Source of the DNA: Gammaproteobacteria bacterium
Lineage (GTDB): Bacteria > Pseudomonadota > Gammaproteobacteria > S012-40
Reading direction: 5' to 3'
Length of the DNA: 38,284 nt
Assembly: GCA_029884425.1 (NCBI GenBank)
Contig: JAOUHV010000027.1
Coordinates: forward strand, 1 to 38,284
The notes beneath the pieces are model-generated. The model saw only the letters and a program-made list of their open reading frames with translations, was not told where the DNA came from and did not search any database. How positions within the stretch are numbered: the first letter of the stretch is position 1; each line of letters starts with the position of its first letter. A program made the position numbers and the translations under genes. Of this stretch, positions 206-35,127 are shown in pieces.

Positions 206-3200
206 TTAGGCTTTTTCCAGTTGTTTGTATTTGAACGCGTAATACATCACCGGAATGATGACCAGTGTCAGCAGCGTTGACACCAGAATGCCGAAGATCA
301 GCGCAATGGCCAGACCGTTGAAGATCGGGTCATCGAGGATAAACAGCGCGCCCAAGATCGCCGCCAGTGCGGTCAGGGTGATGGGCTTGGCGCGCACGGC
401 ACCGGCGCGAATCACCGCGTCCTGGAAGTTGACGCCACGCGCAACTTCCTCGTTGATGAAATCCACCAACAAAATGGAGTTACGCACGATAATCCCTGCC
501 AGTGCGATCATGCCTATCATCGAGGTCGCGGTGAACTGCGCACCCAGCAGTGCATGACCGGGCATGACACCAATCACTGTCAGCGGAATCGGCGCCATGA
601 TGATCAGCGGCACGACGTAGCTGCGGAATTGCGCTACCACCAGCAGGTAGATCAGTATCAGACCTACCGAATAGGCCAGACCCATGTCGCGGAAGGTTTC
701 GTAGGTCACCTGCCATTCGCCATCCCACTTGATGGAGTACTGGTAGGGGTTCTCCGGCTGGTTGATCAGATACTGGGTCAGCTCTTCGCCCATCAAGGCT
801 TTCAGCGGCGTGTCGGCCAACTGGCCAAGGATGTCGAACATGCCGTACAGCGGGCTGTCCAGATTGCCGGCCAGATCGCCAGTGACGAACACCACCGGTA
901 ACAAATCCTTGTGCAGAATGCTGTATTCACGACGGCTGCCGATCACTTCGGCGACTGCCGACAACGGAATCAGCTTGCCGGTTTGCGAGCGAACTTTCAG
1001 CGCCAGCAGTGACTGAATGTCGGCCTTGTCACCTTCGCTGAATTCCAACCGTATCGGCACTGCCGATTTGGTGTGAATCGTACGCAGATTGCTGACATCG
1101 GCACCGCGCAGTGCGGTTGCGATGGCGTCGGTGACGGCTTGCTGGTTCAGACCCAGCAATGCAGCTTTCTGTCTGTCCACCTGGATGACCCACTTGGCGC
1201 TGGGGGATTCGACGCTGTCGTCCACGTCAACGATGTCGGCGGTGTTTTCAAACACCTCGCGAATGGATTTGGCGACTTCAATCTGGCCGTCGTAGTTGAT
1301 GCCGTAGACCTCTGCAACCAACGGTGCCTGTACCGGTGGACCGGGTGGCACTTCGATGACCTTGACGTTGGCCTGATATTTCTTGCCTATCTCAACCAGC
1401 GGGCCGCGCACCGCCATGGCGATGTCGTGGCTCTTGCGCTCACGCAAGGACTTGTCGCGCAGATTGACCTGGATGTCGGCCACATTGGCGCCATCACGCA
1501 GGTAATACTGGCGCACCAGACCGTTGAAGTTGATCGGCGCTGCGGTGCCGACATAGGCCTGATAATCTGTGACTTCGGGCACGGTGCTCAGGTAGTCACC
1601 CAGTTCCTTGATGACCAGCGCGGTTTGCTCCAGCGAGGTGCCTTCGTTCATGTCGACCACGACCTGGAACTCGGACTTGTTATCAAACGGCAGCATTTTG
1701 AGCACCACCAGTTTGAATCCCGCCAAGCTGACCGAGATCACGATCAGGGCAATGACCACGATGGTCAGTTTGTTGCGATTGCTGCGGCCTTCACGGCCAC
1801 GCAGGAAGGGACGTACGCCTTTTTCAAACAGCGCCAGCATGCGTGGATTCACGTCCTGATGCTGAGCATCACCGGCAGCGTGATGTTGCTGGTTTTGCAG
1901 CACTTTCAGCGTCAGCCAGGGAGTGATGATGAAGGCAACCGCCAACGAAATCACCATGCCGATACTGGCGTTGATCGGAATCGGACTCATGTACGGCCCC
2001 ATCAGGCCGGACACGAATGCCATGGGCAGCAGGGCCGCAACCACTGCGAAGGTCGCCAGGATGGTGGGACCACCCACTTCGTCCACTGCCAGCGGAATGG
2101 CTTCGGCCAGGTTCTTTTTACCCATCTGCAGGTGACGGTGAATGTTTTCCACCACCACGATGGCGTCATCCACCAGAATACCGATGGAGAAAATCAGCGC
2201 GAACAACGATACGCGGTTGAGGGTAAAGCCCCACGCCCAGGAGGCGAACAGGGTCAGCGCCAGGGTGACAACGATGGCGGTGCCGACGATAAAGGCTTCA
2301 CGCTTGCCCAGGGTGAACAACACCAGCAACACCACCACGCCCGTGGCGAAGAACAGCTTTTGGATCAGCGTCATCGCCTTGTTGTTGGCGGTGGCGCCGT
2401 AGTTACGGGTTACAGTGACTTCAACGCCTTCAGGGACGAAAATGCCGCGTAACTGGTCAAAGCGCTCAATAACCTGTTCGGCCACTTCAATGGCATTGGT
2501 GCCGGGTTTTTTGGCAATGGCGACGGTGACGGCGGGGTAAATGCCCTGGCCATCAATGGCCTTGTCCGCCGCCGCTGGGCCGGTGCCAAACCAGACGTAT
2601 TGCTCGGGCTGGTCGGCTTCGTGGCGTACGGTAGCCACGTCGCGCAGATACACTGGCGCGCCGTTGGACAGGCCGACGATCAGGTTGTTGATTTCATTGG
2701 CTTCGGACAGGAAAGTGCCTGCCTGGATGGTGATTTCCTGATTATCGCGTACCACTTCGCCGGCATTTTCCGAAGCATTGGCCGCCAGCAGGGTTTGTTT
2801 GATCTGCTGGATGTCGATGTTGTAGCCGGACAGACGCTGCGGATCGAGCAGCACATGCACTACCTGATCGGCACCGCCGATGGTGTAGATGTCACGGGTG
2901 CCGGGCACGCGCTTGAGTTCGGACTCGATGGTGTGGGCCACTTTCTGCAAATCAAACGCGCCACGGCTTTCGTCTTTGGTCCACAATGTCAGGCTGACCA
3001 CGGGCACGTCATCAATGCCCATGGGCTTGATGATGGGCTTGCCTACGCCCAGGTTGGGCGAAATCCAGTCCTCGTTGGACAGGATATTGTTGTACAGCTT
3101 GACGATGGAACGGGTGCGATCCTGGCCGACTTCGAACTGCACAGTCAGCACCGACATGCCGGGGCGAGACACAGAATAAACGTGTTCAATGCCGGCAATT

Positions 3201-3442
3201 TCTGACAACACCTGTTCGGCCGGTGTGGATACCAGTGCTTCCACTTCCTTGGCGGTGGCACCGGGGAAGGGGATGAACACGTTGGCGAAGGTGACGTCGA
3301 TTTGCGGTTCTTCTTCGCGCGGGGTGACCAATACGGCGAAAATGCCCAGCAGCAGGCCAACCAGCGCCAATAGCGGGGTGATTTCCGACTTGAGAAACTT
3401 TTTGGCAACGCTGCCAGAAAAGCCGAGTTTGTCGTTACTCAT
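206..3442 (-). CDS. RND-family efflux transporter, inner-membrane permease subunit
   Basis: This 1078-residue protein has the size and layout of an RND (AcrB/HAE-1 type) proton-driven exporter. It has an N-terminal membrane helix, a large periplasmic loop, a block of helices from about residue 360, a second periplasmic loop, and a final helix block. The fourth-helix proton-relay motif ILVDDAIVVVEN has both aspartates (D425, D426). The matching late helix reads GIIVRNSILLVDF, with Arg where AcrB has the relay Lys. It starts at an ATG overlapping the membrane-fusion gene stop by one base (TAATG), with GGAGG just upstream, so the two are translated together. No outer-membrane TolC partner is in this operon. 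The substrate cannot be told from sequence; organic compounds are as possible as metals. Confidence 0.93.
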   Translation of the reverse strand: MSNDKLGFSGSVAKKFLKSEITPLLALVGLLLGIFAVLVTPREEEPQIDVTFANVFIPFPGATAKEVEALVSTPAEQVLSEIAGIEHVYSVSRPGMSVLTVQFEVGQDRTRSIVKLYNNILSNEDWISPNLGVGKPIIKPMGIDDVPVVSLTLWTKDESRGAFDLQKVAHTIESELKRVPGTRDIYTIGGADQVVHVLLDPQRLSGYNIDIQQIKQTLLAANASENAGEVVRDNQEITIQAGTFLSEANEINNLIVGLSNGAPVYLRDVATVRHEADQPEQYVWFGTGPAAADKAIDGQGIYPAVTVAIAKKPGTNAIEVAEQVIERFDQLRGIFVPEGVEVTVTRNYGATANNKAMTLIQKLFFATGVVVLLVLFTLGKREAFIVGTAIVVTLALTLFASWAWGFTLNRVSLFALIFSIGILVDDAIVVVENIHRHLQMGKKNLAEAIPLAVDEVGGPTILATFAVVAALLPMAFVSGLMGPYMSPIPINASIGMVISLAVAFIITPWLTLKVLQNQQHHAAGDAQHQDVNPRMLALFEKGVRPFLRGREGRSNRNKLTIVVIALIVISVSLAGFKLVVLKMLPFDNKSEFQVVVDMNEGTSLEQTALVIKELGDYLSTVPEVTDYQAYVGTAAPINFNGLVRQYYLRDGANVADIQVNLRDKSLRERKSHDIAMAVRGPLVEIGKKYQANVKVIEVPPGPPVQAPLVAEVYGINYDGQIEVAKSIREVFENTADIVDVDDSVESPSAKWVIQVDRQKAALLGLNQQAVTDAIATALRGADVSNLRTIHTKSAVPIRLEFSEGDKADIQSLLALKVRSQTGKLIPLSAVAEVIGSRREYSILHKDLLPVVFVTGDLAGNLDSPLYGMFDILGQLADTPLKALMGEELTQYLINQPENPYQYSIKWDGEWQVTYETFRDMGLAYSVGLILIYLLVVAQFRSYVVPLIIMAPIPLTVIGVMPGHALLGAQFTATSMIGMIALAGIIVRNSILLVDFINEEVARGVNFQDAVIRAGAVRAKPITLTALAAILGALFILDDPIFNGLAIALIFGILVSTLLTLVIIPVMYYAFKYKQLEKA

Positions 3443-4479
3443 TACTTACCTCCGGCCTGAGACTTTAACTGCACGCCTGCTTGTACGGGGTCCAGAGCGA
3501 TGGTTTCACCGGCGCGCAGACCTGACAGAATTTCAATGAGATCGTTTTTGCGGTTGCCCAGGCGCACCTGGCGCATGCTGATCTTACCGTCGGCGGCAAT
3601 CACGTAGATTGCGCTGACTTCGCTGCGGTGGAACGCAGCTTGGGCGGGAACCAGCAGGGCTTGTTCTTCAGCCACGGTGAACGAGGCTTTCACCAACATG
3701 CCGGGGAAAATCTGCTCGGTGTTTTCCGGCAAATCCAGACGCACACGGAAGGTGTGGTGGGCGGCATCGGCAATGGGGTAAATGGTCAGTTTGGCGGCAT
3801 CAATGCGACGACCGTCCGGCAAAATGATGCTGGCTTTCTTGTGCTGGCGCACGGCGTTGATGAAGGCTTGTGGCACTTGTACATTGACGCGCAATTTGTT
3901 CATGGCCAAGCCGCTCATGATGGGTTTGCCGGGGCTGGCCATTTCGCCCACCTCAATGAGACGCTCGGTGACAATGCCGGAATAGGGCGCGCGGATCGCG
4001 GTGTTGCCGACTTGTTCGTTGGCTTCGGTGACCTGGGCTTCAGCAGCGTTGACGTTGGCTTCGGCGGCGTTCAGTCGTGCCTGGGCCTGATCCAGCATGG
4101 CCACGGAAATCAGTCCCTGGTTGGCCAGATCCTTTTTGCGGTCGAAATCCAGACGAGCATCCTTGGCTTCGGCTCGGGCAGATTGCAGCGCGGCATTGGC
4201 TTTGCTCAGGCCGGCTTTGTATTCCTTGTCGCGGACGTAGGCGATGATTTGATTTTTTTCCACGAAATCATCCACATCCACCTTGATGGCGGTGACGCGG
4301 CCGGAAACTTCAGAGGAAATGGTCGCCCGATTGACGGCCTCTACCACGCCATCCAACAGCTGTTCTTTGGTGTGTAGCTGGTATTGCGCCTTGTGGCTAA
4401 GCAGCGCGCCATTTTCGGCAGCTTGCGCCGAACCCAGGCCAATCAAGAGAAATAGTCCAAAAATCAGTTGGTTGTGCAT
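3442..4479 (-). CDS. RND efflux membrane-fusion (periplasmic adaptor) protein
   Basis: A 345-residue HlyD/AcrA-type adaptor linking the inner-membrane pump to an outer-membrane channel. It has a signal peptide (MHNQLIFGLFLLIGLGSAQA), a first half-lipoyl strand with VSGRVTAIKVDVDDFVEKNQ, a long coiled-coil hairpin rich in Ala, Glu and Asn repeats (about residues 80-155), the returning lipoyl half with IRAPYSGIVTERLIEVGEM, then beta-barrel domains. I chose the ATG at 4479 because it has TGAGG 9 bases upstream. An in-frame ATG at 4494 adds five residues but lacks a clear ribosome-binding site. The gene is the first of the pair with the pump and has its own promoter. Confidence 0.88.
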   Translation of the reverse strand: MHNQLIFGLFLLIGLGSAQAAENGALLSHKAQYQLHTKEQLLDGVVEAVNRATISSEVSGRVTAIKVDVDDFVEKNQIIAYVRDKEYKAGLSKANAALQSARAEAKDARLDFDRKKDLANQGLISVAMLDQAQARLNAAEANVNAAEAQVTEANEQVGNTAIRAPYSGIVTERLIEVGEMASPGKPIMSGLAMNKLRVNVQVPQAFINAVRQHKKASIILPDGRRIDAAKLTIYPIADAAHHTFRVRLDLPENTEQIFPGMLVKASFTVAEEQALLVPAQAAFHRSEVSAIYVIAADGKISMRQVRLGNRKNDLIEILSGLRAGETIALDPVQAGVQLKSQAGGK

Positions 4480-4533
4480 TGGTATGTGCCTCATGTGTAA
4501 GCTAAATTCACTGATGGACGGGGGCCATTAGTG

Positions 4534-30465: not shown

Positions 30466-31290
30466 GTGCACGCAGTGAACGGATTAACACAAGATATTTT
30501 GGTGAGCATACGCTCAGTCCACTTCAGTCGCGGAGAGCGGAAGATTCTCAATGGCATGGATCTGGATATTCCCCGAGGCAAAATAACCGCGATCATGGGT
30601 CCCAGTGGCACCGGCAAAACGACGGCGCTGAACCTGATCGGCGGACAGATTTACCCTTCTGCGGGCGATGTGCTGGTGGATGGTTTGTCTGTTCCTCGGT
30701 TGCGTCGGCGGGAATTATTCGCATTGCGCAAGCGGATGGGGATGTTGTTTCAGAGTGGCGCATTGTTTTCTGACCTGAACGTGTACGACAATGTTGCGTT
30801 TCCTTTGCGTGAGCATACGGACCTGCCTGAGCCCATGATTCGCGATCTGGTGCTGATGAAACTGGAAGCGGTGGGATTGCGTGGCGCACGCGAACTGCGG
30901 CCCAATCAGTTGTCGGGCGGCATGTCTCGACGGGTGGCGCTGGCGCGGGCCATTGCGCTGGATCCGATGATGATGATGTATGATGAGCCCTTCACCGGCC
31001 AGGACCCCATCACGGTGGGGGTGTTGATGAAATTGATCCGGCAATTAAACGACAGCTTGGGGATGACCAGCATTATTGTTTCTCACGACGTGCAGGAAGT
31101 CTGCGCGATTTCCGATTACATTTACCTGATTGCTGATGGCCAGGTGATGGCGAGCGGAACGCCCGATGAGTTGGGGCGCGACGCATCAGAATGGGTTCAG
31201 CAGTTCATGCAGGGGAAGCCGGATGGTCCTGCCGCATTTCATTTTCCTGCGGAAGATATTGCCCTGGATCTGTTGGGCGAGGCGCGCTGA
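30466..31290 (+). CDS. mlaF: MlaF, ATP-binding subunit of the Mla phospholipid transporter
   Basis: A 274-residue ATPase that powers lipid movement between inner and outer membrane through MlaFEDB. It is close to E. coli MlaF throughout: [20 protein letters not shown] (Walker A at 45-53), [39 protein letters not shown] (signature), Walker [17 protein letters not shown], and the C-terminal [18 protein letters not shown] tail. Start is a GTG without a strong ribosome-binding site; GTG codons a few residues in are alternatives. The stop overlaps the mlaE start by one base (TGATG). Confidence 0.95.
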
Positions 31291-32072
31291 TGATGGGTGT
31301 GTTTCAGCGGTTGGGGCAGTGGGCGCTGGGCATGTTTCAGCGCTTGGGTCGTGGACATCTGTTTTTGTTGCGGGTTTTGTCGCAAGTCCCCATGGCTGTG
31401 CTGGATTTCCGTTTATTGGTTCAGCAACTGTATTTTGTTGGCGTACTGTCGCTGATGATCATCGCTGTGTCTGCGCTGGCAGTGGGCATGGTGTTGGGGT
31501 TGCAGGGTTATAACACCCTGGTCGACTTTGGTGCCGAAGCGTCCTTGGGGCCGATGGTGGCCTTGTCGCTGGTGCGTGAACTGGGGCCGGTGTTGACCGC
31601 GCTGCTGGTGGCGGGTCGAGCGGGTTCGGCATTGACGGCAGAAATTGGTTTGATGCGCGTTACTGAGCAATTGCCATCGATGGAAATGATGGCGGTTGAT
31701 CCGTTTCGCCGGGTAATTGCGCCACGGTTTGTTGCTGGCGTGTTGTCCATGCCCTTGCTCGCGGCGGTGTTTAGTGCGGTGGGTATTCTGGGTGGTTATT
31801 TTGTCGGCGTTGGTTTGCTGGGTGTGGACACTGGTGCATTTTGGTCGCAAATGCAGGCCAAAGTAGGCTTTGAAGAAGATATTATCAACGGCGTAGTCAA
31901 AAGCATTGTGTTTGGCGTGGCGGTGACCTGGATTGCGGTGTTTGAAGGTTATGATGCAGCGCCCACGACCGAAGGTGTCAGTCGTGCGACAACGAGAACA
32001 GTGGTGCATAGTGCATTCGCAGTCTTGGGGTTGGATTTTATTCTGACCGCGCTGATGTTTGGAGGGAATTGA
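31290..32072 (+). CDS. mlaE: MlaE, permease of the Mla phospholipid transporter
   Basis: The 260-residue permease has five to six helices and the MlaE motifs: [25 protein letters not shown] (read in two parts), [25 protein letters not shown], and [21 protein letters not shown]. It sits in the inner membrane between the two MlaF subunits and the MlaD ring. The start ATG at 31290 overlaps the mlaF stop. A second ATG one codon on (31293) is equally possible. Confidence 0.95.
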
Positions 32073-32073
32073 G

Positions 32074-32541
32074 TTGAACCACAAAAGCACAACAGAAATT
32101 GCAGTCGGTATTTTTGTGGCCATTGGCTTGGCGGCATTGTTCATGTTGGCCATGAAGGTTAGCAACCTGAGCAATGCGACCAGTGATAATACCTATGCGC
32201 TTACCGCTAAATTTGAAAATATCGGTGGGCTGAAAGTGCGTTCTCCGGTCATGATGGCCGGGGTGCGTATCGGCCAGGTGACCGACGTGCGTGTCGATGC
32301 CGAAACTTTTGAAGCGGTGGTGACCATGGAGATTGAGCAGCGGTTTACCTCGCTTCCCAAGGATACCAGCGCGAGCATTTTGACTTCCGGTTTGCTTGGT
32401 GAGCAGTATTTGGGCTTGGAGGCCGGTGGCGATAGCGAGGCGCTAAAGCACGGTGACGAAATTCGCATTACCCAATCGGCGTTCGTGTTGGAGCAGGTGA
32501 TTGGTCAGTTTCTGTTCAAAAAGGCTGCCGGGGATGAATAA
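32074..32541 (+). CDS. mlaD: MlaD, MCE-domain lipid-binding ring protein
   Basis: The 155-residue protein has one N-terminal membrane helix (TTEIAVGIFVAIGLAALFML) and a single MCE domain (FENIGGLKVRSPVMMAGVRIGQV; SGLLGEQYLGLE). In E. coli six copies form the ring through which phospholipid passes above MlaE. I chose the TTG at 32074 because GGAGG lies at 32061-32065 and the family starts there. The short helical tail ends KKAAGDE. The end of the gene overlaps the TolC-like gene by 8 bases. Confidence 0.93.
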   Translation: MNHKSTTEIAVGIFVAIGLAALFMLAMKVSNLSNATSDNTYALTAKFENIGGLKVRSPVMMAGVRIGQVTDVRVDAETFEAVVTMEIEQRFTSLPKDTSASILTSGLLGEQYLGLEAGGDSEALKHGDEIRITQSAFVLEQVIGQFLFKKAAGDE

Positions 32542-33901
32542 ACGTTGGCTGCTGCCAGCGCTGTTGCTGTTGTCTGGCGGTGTGGCGGCGGACCAGGGTG
32601 TTTACACTTTGGAGCAGTTGACGCAAATGGCCTTGCAAACGGATCCTCGCATCAGCGAGCGGGAGCAATTGGTGGCTTCCGCTCGTGCATTGCAGCGCGA
32701 AGCTAAAGAGTCTGGCGGCGTGAAGGTGGATACCAATAGCTTTTTGGCCATTGCGCCGGCAGTGAACGGCGGTCTTTTTGAAGAGGTGGCCTGTGACCCC
32801 TCCGTCGTTGAGTGCAAGGTTCGTGACGATCGCTTTGATCTGGTTCAGGGCTTGTCGCTGTGGACCTATCTGGAATTTAGCGTCATCAAACCTCTGAGCA
32901 CGTTTGGCAAGGTGGAAAATTTTGCCGAGGCTGCTCGCCACAATGTGACAGTCAAAGAAAACGATGTGCGCATCCAGCGCGGTGCCACCATGCTTGATGT
33001 CCGGCGTGCCTATTACGGTCATTTGGCCTCGCGCAGCACGGTGCTGTTTTTGACCGATGTGAAACGACGCGTCGGCAATGCCGAAACGCTGGTACAGGAC
33101 TGGCTGGATCAGGGAGAGGGCAATGTTCGGCAATCAAGTCTATACGCCATCCAATCTGCCAACAAATTAGTCTCTGCCTACCTTGCCCAGGCCGATGGAA
33201 TACAAAAAATCAGTCTGGACGGTTTGAAGGTGCTCAGTGGCATTGGCTTGCAGGGGGAGCTGAGTTTGGCCGAAGCCTCACTCGCCCCGGTGCCTTTGCC
33301 TACGTACGATTTGGTGGGCTTGCAGGATCTCGCGTTGCAACGACGCCCGGAAATGCGCCAGGTCGAGGCCGGCTTAAAGGCCAGACGTGCTTTGGTGGAA
33401 GCCAATAAGGCGATGGTGCGGCCAAACTTATATGCCGGTGTGGCGGGGGTGTATTCCGCAGCGCCGGGTCGGGATAGGCTGGATAATCCATACATCTATG
33501 ACCCATTCAATGATTATGGTGTGACGCCGCTGCTGGGCTTGCAGTGGAGCTGGGAGCCTGGCGTACAGAGCGCGCGCGTTGATCAAGCTAGGGCGGAATT
33601 GAGTGCATTGATTGAAAAGCAAAGTCTGGCGCGCAACGGTATTCCCTTTCAGGTAGCTGAGAAATATCATGAAATGCACGCCTATCACGATTCGTTGTTG
33701 GCGCTGGAGGAAGGGGCCAAGTCTGCGCGGCGCTGGATGGTGGCGGCATACACAGATTTTGAAGCTGGGCTGGAAACGACCGATAAACTGGTTGCTGCGT
33801 TTCAGGCCTACGTGCTTGCGTACACGGAGTATTTGAAAACCGTGTATGAATACAACATGCGGGTGGCGCAGCTGGATCAGGTCACAGGAGCATATGAATG
33901 A
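32534..33901 (+). CDS. TolC-family outer-membrane protein encoded inside the mla operon
   Basis: The 455-residue protein has a signal peptide (MNKRWLLPALLLLSGGVAA) and the OEP layout of TolC-family channels: two halves of long helices (YTLEQLTQMALQTDPRISE; LVGLQDLALQRRPEMRQVEA) with strand segments between them (FSVIKPLSTFGKVEN; GLQWSWEPG). Such proteins form trimeric outer-membrane channels. A pair of cysteines (CDPSVVEC) sits in the first half and could form a disulfide. The gene overlaps mlaD by 8 bases and mlaC by 4, so it is translationally embedded in the operon. The mla operons I know of from E. coli and Pseudomonas have mlaC directly after mlaD, so this insertion is unusual. A role in lipid traffic is inferred from position only. 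Confidence 0.88.
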   Translation: MNKRWLLPALLLLSGGVAADQGVYTLEQLTQMALQTDPRISEREQLVASARALQREAKESGGVKVDTNSFLAIAPAVNGGLFEEVACDPSVVECKVRDDRFDLVQGLSLWTYLEFSVIKPLSTFGKVENFAEAARHNVTVKENDVRIQRGATMLDVRRAYYGHLASRSTVLFLTDVKRRVGNAETLVQDWLDQGEGNVRQSSLYAIQSANKLVSAYLAQADGIQKISLDGLKVLSGIGLQGELSLAEASLAPVPLPTYDLVGLQDLALQRRPEMRQVEAGLKARRALVEANKAMVRPNLYAGVAGVYSAAPGRDRLDNPYIYDPFNDYGVTPLLGLQWSWEPGVQSARVDQARAELSALIEKQSLARNGIPFQVAEKYHEMHAYHDSLLALEEGAKSARRWMVAAYTDFEAGLETTDKLVAAFQAYVLAYTEYLKTVYEYNMRVAQLDQVTGAYE

Positions 33902-34503
33902 GAAAATTGGTTTTCGCGTGGTTAGTGCTGGGCTTGTTTGTATCGCAGTCCCTGGCTGCGGCGCAGCCGCCGCAGCAATTGGTAGAGCAAACTGCGCAAA
34001 AAGTGCTGGGCAAACTAAAAACAGATCGCGAATTGATCAAAAAAGACCCAGGCTACATTCATGGTCTGGTTGATGAATATGTGCTGCCGCATTTTGATTT
34101 TGAGGGTATGGGGCAGTGGGTGTTGGGCAAATACTGGCGCACGGCTAGCGAGTCGCAACGCAGTCAGTTTGTGGCGGAATTCCGTACCTTGCTGGTGCGC
34201 ACCTACGCTACGTCGCTGACGGAATTTACCGATCAAAAAATCACCTACTTGCCGATGCGAGGCAAGGAGGCTGATGGTGATGTGACGGTGCGCTCCGAAG
34301 TGGAGCAGCCTGGTAGTTTTCCGGTGCCGATCAATTATCGTCTGCACAAAAAGGGTGATGCCTGGAAAGTGTACGATGTCACCATTGATGACGTCAGTTT
34401 GATTGCCAATTACCGGACAAGTTTTTCCAGAGAAATCAAAGATTCCGGCATGGATAAGCTGATCCAGTCTCTGGCCGAGCGCAACAAAAAGGCCGGCTCG
34501 TGA
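33898..34503 (+). CDS. mlaC: MlaC, periplasmic phospholipid carrier
   Basis: A 201-residue secreted protein with a signal peptide (MRKLVFAWLVLGLFVSQSLA) and MlaC family features: VDEYVLPHFDFEGMGQWVLGKYW, ASESQRSQFVAEFRTLLVRTYA, VYDVTIDDVSLIANYRTSF. MlaC shuttles phospholipid across the periplasm between MlaD and the outer-membrane MlaA complex; no mlaA is in this window. The ATG overlaps the TolC-like stop (ATGA) and has AGGAG 7 bases upstream. Confidence 0.94.
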   Translation: MRKLVFAWLVLGLFVSQSLAAAQPPQQLVEQTAQKVLGKLKTDRELIKKDPGYIHGLVDEYVLPHFDFEGMGQWVLGKYWRTASESQRSQFVAEFRTLLVRTYATSLTEFTDQKITYLPMRGKEADGDVTVRSEVEQPGSFPVPINYRLHKKGDAWKVYDVTIDDVSLIANYRTSFSREIKDSGMDKLIQSLAERNKKAGS

Positions 34504-34799
34504 GCATTGAGCTGACCGAGCTTTCTGCCAACCGCTACCGGGTGTCAGGAGTGCTGACTCTGACGAGTGTGGCCCAGGCTTGGCGGCAGCGACTGTTGCC
34601 GGACGCGGCGCCTGGGGTTGAGTTGGTGCTGGATCTGTCCAACGTTTCCCATGTGGATAGCGGGGGGTTGGCGTTGTTGATCGCCTGGACACGGCAGGCG
34701 CGTGGGGCAGGTTATTCTCTGGTGTTTAGTGGGGTTTCGGCGCGAATGGCGTCCCTTGCCCAGGTCACTGGCGTAGATCGGGTGTTGACCATCCAATAA
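34500..34799 (+). CDS. mlaB: MlaB, cytoplasmic STAS protein of the Mla transporter
   Basis: A 99-residue STAS-domain protein with VLDLSNVSHVDSGGLALLIAW, the loop that in STAS proteins contacts the partner. MlaB binds MlaF and supports assembly and activity of the ABC complex. The GTG start overlaps the mlaC stop (GTGA). Length and position match E. coli MlaB (97 residues) and complete the Mla set MlaF, E, D, C, B. Confidence 0.9.
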   Translation: MSIELTELSANRYRVSGVLTLTSVAQAWRQRLLPDAAPGVELVLDLSNVSHVDSGGLALLIAWTRQARGAGYSLVFSGVSARMASLAQVTGVDRVLTIQ

Positions 34800-34884: not shown

Positions 34885-35127
34885 ATGCAGCCAAATGAAA
34901 TAAAAACACTGATCGAAGCCGGGTTGCCTGGGGCGACGGTGATACTCGGTGGCGAGGGTTGTAACTCGCAAGTGACCGTGATTAGCGAAGATTTTGCGGG
35001 CAAGTCATTGTTGCAGCAGCAACGGATGGTCTATGCCGCGCTTGGCGACAGATTCCGTACTGGAGAAATCCATGCGCTGTCGGTCAAGTCCTATACCCCG
35101 GCCCAATGGGCTTCACGGGGATCCTGA
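34885..35127 (+). CDS. ibaG: BolA-family protein IbaG
   Basis: An 80-residue BolA-like protein, near-complete match to E. coli IbaG (YrbA) in length and pattern: LIEAGLPGATVILGGEGCNSQVTV, GKSLLQQQRMVYAALGD and IHALSVKSYTPAQW. BolA proteins pair with monothiol glutaredoxins around an iron-sulfur cluster; the Cys at GCNSQ may be a ligand. It lies 28 bases before murA, as in other Gammaproteobacteria. The ribosome-binding site is weak. Confidence 0.93.
   Translation: MQPNEIKTLIEAGLPGATVILGGEGCNSQVTVISEDFAGKSLLQQQRMVYAALGDRFRTGEIHALSVKSYTPAQWASRGS

Follow-up and report, generated by a model that had tools for sequence, protein, structure and literature searches.

A conserved TolC-family channel gene between mlaD and mlaC that most likely replaces MlaA

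The window—the whole stretch of 38,284 nucleotides that was analysed—contains an mla operon with a gene for a TolC-family outer-membrane channel protein (OEP) lodged between mlaD and mlaC, raising the question of what such a channel contributes to the Mla pathway. That the gene inside this operon is genuine is confirmed. It is complete (455 aa, ATG at 32534 to stop at 33901, + strand), and overlaps mlaD (stop at 32541) by 8 bases and mlaC (start at 33898) by 4 bases. ORF coordinates and the PF02321 match bear out the preliminary description, which had reported a complete OEP-type gene with a signal peptide and these two overlaps, both exact, in an otherwise ordinary mlaFEDCB operon; the latter point also holds, the mlaF, E, D, C and B families all being recovered by Pfam and NCBIfam profiles, so that MlaFEDB and MlaC of the canonical pathway are all present in the window. 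The gene order is mlaFED–OEP–CB, then a BolA/IbaG gene, murA and a hisG-like gene, the last assigned from its sequence. The features are as follows.

30466–31290, + strand: mlaF, ABC ATPase (PF00005), GTG start as called; the top NCBIfam model is MlaF, at 388 bits, below its cut-off of 441
31290–32072, + strand: mlaE, permease (PF02405, E=2.4e-76; above the NF033619 cut-off)
32074–32541, + strand: mlaD, short, single-MCE, 155 aa, TTG start (above the cut-off of the TIGR04430 equivalog; Pfam MlaD, 5.7e-22)
32534–33901, + strand: mla-linked TolC-family outer-membrane channel (OEP), 455 aa (PF02321; AlphaFold2 TolC fold; clade support 99/99; conserved slot)
32534–32590, + strand: predicted cleavable signal peptide of the OEP, SPI type, no lipobox (from the translation)
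~33098–33145, + strand: OEP periplasmic tip 1, approximately residues 189–204, WLDQGEGNVRQSSLYA, with the 2-residue insertion of the subfamily
33758–33787, + strand: OEP periplasmic tip 2, residues 409–418, FEAGLETTDK, with E at the TolC R367 site and K at the TolC D371 site
33898–34503, + strand: mlaC, periplasmic lipid-carrier homologue (PF05494, E=5e-58), found in 44/44 OEP-bearing genomes; putative partner of the OEP
34500–34799, + strand: mlaB, STAS protein (PF13466; below the NF033618 cut-off)
34885–35127, + strand: BolA/IbaG-family gene (PF01722), a downstream neighbour conserved in order

The N-terminus of the OEP, read off the sequence, is MNKRWLLPALLLLSGGVAA/DQ, which has the form of a signal peptide and lacks the cysteine of a lipobox. 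PF02321 matches at E=1.9e-21 (77.2 bits against a cut-off of 22) with the second repeat covered, and the protein scores far under the models for type I secretion TolC (TIGR01844, 28.8 bits against a cut-off of 225) and NodT (TIGR01845, 25.8 bits against 210). The AlphaFold2 monomer model, built on a 79-sequence alignment, is a complete TolC protomer (mean pLDDT 91) with four strands in two pairs and helices of 68, 36, 69 and 36 residues. It superposes on solved E. coli TolC (1ek9) with a TM-score of ~0.76, and a Foldseek search returned TolC, CusC, OprM and OprN on top, at 13–18% identity to solved outer membrane factors (OMFs). No match to the MlaA domain (PF04333) was found in the OEP with Pfam; where we liken it to MlaA, the likeness is one of role only.

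Is the arrangement a local accident? An OEP orthologue was found in 15/56 genomes sampled around the window (its own included), the relatives sharing 46–59% identity; these comprise 11/13 genomes of its own family and members of four other families. All 15 lie between mlaD and mlaC, or directly 5′ of mlaC at a contig end or beside unresolved upstream genes. Scanning 84,980 species genomes turned up 188 confirmed relatives, of which the best 80 were taken as named loci. Among those best 80 of 188, the OEP gene stands immediately before mlaC wherever there is enough flank, directly preceded by mlaD in every locus that has mlaFED on the contig, and their hosts include Thiobacillus thioparus DSM 505, Sulfuriferula, Sulfuricella, Sulfurimicrobium, Candidatus Tenderia, a Thiotrichaceae MAG and many Gammaproteobacteria. 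The downstream BolA/IbaG gene order is conserved across loci. Recurrence in the same slot, in 15/56 genomes and 80 further named loci, excludes chance or a local insertion. In 370 genomes of the class the subfamily is sharply delimited: 44 genomes score 406–749 bits, the next match 103 bits—the other part of one OEP gene split across contigs (G286)—and the remainder ≤73. A count of mla neighbourhoods had been proposed in the preliminary description; the subfamily is present in 15/56 sampled genomes and 44/370 class genomes.

A further feature of these genomes, which that description did not raise, is that MlaA is missing. There was no PF04333 match in the genome of the window (98% complete), which in this respect departs from the canonical six-component pathway, nor in any genome of its family (13 in all), and MlaA was absent from all 15 sampled genomes bearing the OEP. 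Likewise, no MlaA match was found within up to 8 kb either side of the OEP in the best 80 of 188 loci, and MlaA was absent from 28/30 named OEP-bearing genomes, that of T. thioparus DSM 505 among them. Across the 370 class genomes, 39 had the OEP without MlaA, 5 had both, 293 had MlaA without the OEP and 33 had neither. MlaC was present in 44/44 OEP-bearing genomes, and when only MlaC-bearing genomes are counted (two MlaC-less genomes being taken as MlaA-less), MlaA was found in 5/44 with the OEP compared with 291/304 (96%) without it (Fisher p ~8e-35, kinship ignored).

Both genes are carried by six genomes, the 5/44 of the class sample and the named genome L093. In these the MlaA gene is sited away from the mla operon (four loci inspected, two more seen as short loci); in one such genome (G126, L172:7972-11416) the MlaA gene is near a TolC/AcrB-type efflux operon. 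Four MlaC-bearing genomes with neither MlaA nor the OEP were looked at for a further MlaA replacement and none was seen, three having an ordinary mlaED–CB without insert and the fourth MlaC away from mlaD. In the same family as the window's genome, one genome listed as 100% complete (G005) yielded no MlaA, MlaC or mla OEP, and its Mla pathway seems to have been lost.

The association might still reflect common descent. A first tree, from MlaFE only, showed a trend of MlaA opposite to the OEP but gave only 4 supported contrasts (p 0.125), and a five-gene tree (MlaF+MlaE+MlaD+MlaC+MurA) was therefore built. Here OEP-bearing and MlaA-bearing genomes are scattered, and no fewer than 10 switches in OEP state are required by supported branches. 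Of 8 supported path-independent contrasts, whose counts do not tell OEP gain from OEP loss, an average of 6.9 show MlaA moving opposite to the OEP and 0.0 show it moving with the OEP (a rounded mean; one case each in 3/200 random pairings), giving a median two-sided p of 0.016. The rows with MlaA and without the OEP were chosen as MlaA-bearing, 96% of OEP-less genomes with MlaC being so; nearly all both-gene genomes then known were put into the test, which works against the result.

Exchange can also be seen at close range. In family f65, G350 has mlaFEDCB without the OEP and MlaA elsewhere, its sister genomes having the OEP and no MlaA; in family f69, G283 has mlaED–mlaA–mlaC, its sisters again having the OEP and no MlaA. 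Moreover, MlaA can occupy the very same slot, as mlaFED–mlaA–mlaCB in L214 and L215 and as mlaED–mlaA–mlaC in L217. The full order of the L214/L215 type (G106, G212), which we take to be Burkholderiales-type, is mlaF–mlaE–mlaD–mlaA–mlaC–mlaB–(ABC)–bolA–murA. These observations bear on the suggestion that loss of MlaA and presence of the OEP are both side effects of a single lineage trait, such as an unusual envelope in sulfur or iron oxidisers, with no functional exchange. Many hosts are indeed chemolithotrophs (Thiobacillus, Sulfuriferula, Sulfurimicrobium, Ca. Tenderia), and the six genomes with both genes are compatible with it. Against it speak MlaA taking the identical slot in related operons, switches inside two families, and an OEP that is tied to mlaC rather than scattered, and we regard it as very unlikely.

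The preliminary description had also offered that the OEP serves an RND pump whose operon lacks a channel. The pump is real: genes for an AcrB-family RND protein and a HlyD-type adaptor lie at 209–4494 (− strand) of the window, with no OMF gene in their operon. An ordinary efflux OMF, serving this pump or others and hitch-hiking in the mla operon, would also fit the OEP fold and Pfam family. The genome, however, has two general TolC homologues, one on contig C1 next to pcm and the other on C3; C43 and C59 carry additional OEPs, there adjoining pumps of the Cus/Czc type. In a tree the mla OEPs form their own clade (99/99), to which neither E. coli TolC nor CusC nor the other TolCs of this genome belong, and group with none of the tree-placed OEPs of C1, C3 and C43; in the phylogenetic comparison with efflux TolCs that had been suggested as a check, the protein accordingly does not fall among the general TolCs. 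The gene is flanked by mlaC and, if the locus has it, mlaD (in all loci with these on the contig), rather than by an adaptor of the HlyD/AcrA kind with its pump, and a hitch-hiker would not predict the absence of MlaA from independent lineages.

The periplasmic end of the protein, where an adaptor would sit, is altered too. In TolC the entrance is closed and tuned by an R367–D153 lock and an aspartate ring, D371/D374 (PMC8277102). The R367 site is E in 66/78 mla OEPs and the D371 site K or R in 64/78, while D153 is kept in 75/78, the Y362 site is F in 75/78 and G365 is kept; the R367 lock and D371 ring of a canonical efflux tip are therefore not what this subfamily carries. A 2-residue insertion in tip 1 is present in 77–78/78 mla OEPs and in one RND-linked relative (L028), compared with 0/12 other OEPs. 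Since VceC and CusC likewise lack parts of the TolC network, the change is not exclusive to mla OEPs and does not on its own exclude efflux. It does suggest that the docking end of the mla OEP is under different selection. With two ordinary TolCs elsewhere, a separate clade and a changed adaptor side, the attribution to the pump is not supported, and an ordinary efflux role, for this pump or others, appears to us very unlikely.

If the OEP is not an efflux channel, with what does it work? Seven OEP-bearing genomes have no MlaE anywhere (L096, L098, L108, L120, L130, L132 and L139), and have therefore lost MlaFED, and in these the OEP gene and mlaC still stand side by side, with murA downstream if the contig extends that far. 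The sister of the mla-OEP clade (100/100, both on long branches) is the RND-linked OEP of G003, a genome that has, besides its mla-operon copy, a separate cluster of an MMPL-type RND gene, a diverged mlaC and a diverged OEP gene. This three-gene cluster (G003:C12; L171:9222-13575), its RND of MMPL/sterol-sensing type, is a second pairing of an MlaC-like protein with an OEP. Because the OEP–MlaC pair outlasts MlaFED and recurs in the RND–MlaC–OEP cluster, the partner of the OEP is most likely MlaC, judging from gene content and order. Stand-alone MlaC–MlaA gene pairs without adjoining mlaFED exist in the MlaA-bearing genomes L218 and L219, providing a close parallel: either MlaA or the OEP beside MlaC, with or without MlaFED. 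An MMPL RND was considered as the missing driver in the MlaE-less genomes, and gave no signal because MMPL-like proteins occur in every genome tested.

Attempts to see the partnership in MlaC itself were uninformative. A basic patch of E. coli MlaC takes the acidic tail of MlaA (PMC10719372), and that the acidic OEP tip is linked to this patch is a guess. The residues tied to MlaA binding (R90 and its neighbours) showed no useful difference between OEP-bearing and MlaA-bearing genomes, a comparison with little power because the patch also serves MlaD (PMC10245069), the footprint being common to both.

Alternatively, the OEP could team up with MlaFED, and perhaps also with MlaC, to form a conduit across the envelope, an MlaD hexamer leading to a TolC trimer and exporting a lipid or other hydrophobic compound in the manner of a tripartite pump. 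The OEP gene overlaps mlaD, and in Veillonella parvula mlaEFD is followed directly by tolC and tamB, without MlaA or MlaC (PMC10665443). One locus, L095, has an MlaD that would suit a conduit: its 277 aa carry two tandem MCE repeats instead of one, possibly giving a longer reach towards the channel. In nearly all OEP-bearing loci, however, MlaD is short, 150–166 aa, as in MlaA-bearing loci; the two groups do not differ in MlaD length, and the MlaD of the window falls in the same class as those of MlaA-bearing genomes. MlaC is moreover retained in all 44 OEP-bearing genomes, and the OEP–MlaC pair in the seven that lost MlaE. A conduit is, in our estimation, unlikely.

We think it likely, instead, that the OEP takes over the role of MlaA, as an outer-membrane port dedicated to MlaC, an assignment drawing on the observed gene, fold, synteny, separate clade, MlaA absence, shared slot, OEP–MlaC persistence and altered tip. 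The operon would then encode a variant Mla pathway with its own outer-membrane component: a presumed trimer of TolC shape, its 12-strand barrel set in the outer membrane and its helical tunnel extending into the periplasm, taking the place of MlaA as docking site. MlaC, lipid-loaded or empty, would move to and fro between MlaD, in the MlaFEDB complex, and the periplasmic tip of the trimer, where it would contact the channel. The cargo would be phospholipid and its transfer retrograde, removing surface-exposed lipid. It counts against a port that the tunnel of a TolC offers outer-leaflet lipid no evident sideways passage, and that six genomes have MlaA as well. With somewhat less assurance, we lean towards a broader reading, that a TolC-family channel has repeatedly been exchanged with MlaA as the partner of MlaC, and that MlaC and channel form a separable module able to work without MlaFEDB, driven by an RND protein or by a part not yet found. 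The proposal in the preliminary description that this lineage couples the Mla machine to its own channel stands in part: synteny, the separate clade and the near-perfect exclusion of MlaA speak for a channel belonging to Mla, but the conserved partner is MlaC, and not the MlaFEDB machine: the OEP–MlaC pair outlasts MlaE and is also met beside an MMPL-type RND.

There is still debate over the way in which MlaC passes lipid to or from the outer membrane, and over the direction of Mla transport. If an unrelated fold has taken over from MlaA, the minimal requirement can be tested, since features common to MlaA and a TolC-like protein are what MlaC needs. If the port is real, a TolC-family protein would be dedicated to lipid traffic rather than to efflux or secretion. 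The data suggest that Mla can operate with another kind of outer-membrane half, and a missing MlaA need not mean a broken pathway. A cultured host with the OEP is available in T. thioparus DSM 505 (L135).

The mla operon variant described here, with a TolC-fold protein most likely standing in for MlaA, is thus real and conserved, and apparently unreported: no account of a TolC-family protein in the place of MlaA was found in the full texts of openly licensed papers, preprint servers aside, and for TolC or an outer membrane factor together with Mla only the Veillonella paper was relevant in that literature. V. parvula resembles the window in having a TolC homologue encoded after the mla inner-membrane proteins, and in lacking MlaA, but it lacks MlaC as well, and its long MlaD ends in a C-terminal barrel of its own, compared with an MlaD of 155 aa in the window; the part of that source consulted gives no function for its TolC (PMC10665443). 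The likeness drawn here is one of gene order. TolC, CusC and OprM share with the mla OEP the fold and a full-length helical tunnel, and differ from it in sequence (13–18% identity), clade, tip and an operon partner that is here MlaC and not a HlyD adaptor. The E. coli system (MlaFEDB–MlaC–MlaA/OmpC) has the same order and families of mlaF, E, D, C and B, with BolA/IbaG and murA downstream, whereas here the genome has no MlaA and a TolC-family channel gene lies between mlaD and mlaC. The presumed Burkholderiales-type operon of L214 and L215 likewise places a single gene for an outer-membrane component between mlaD and mlaC: the MlaA lipoprotein there, a TolC-family channel here.
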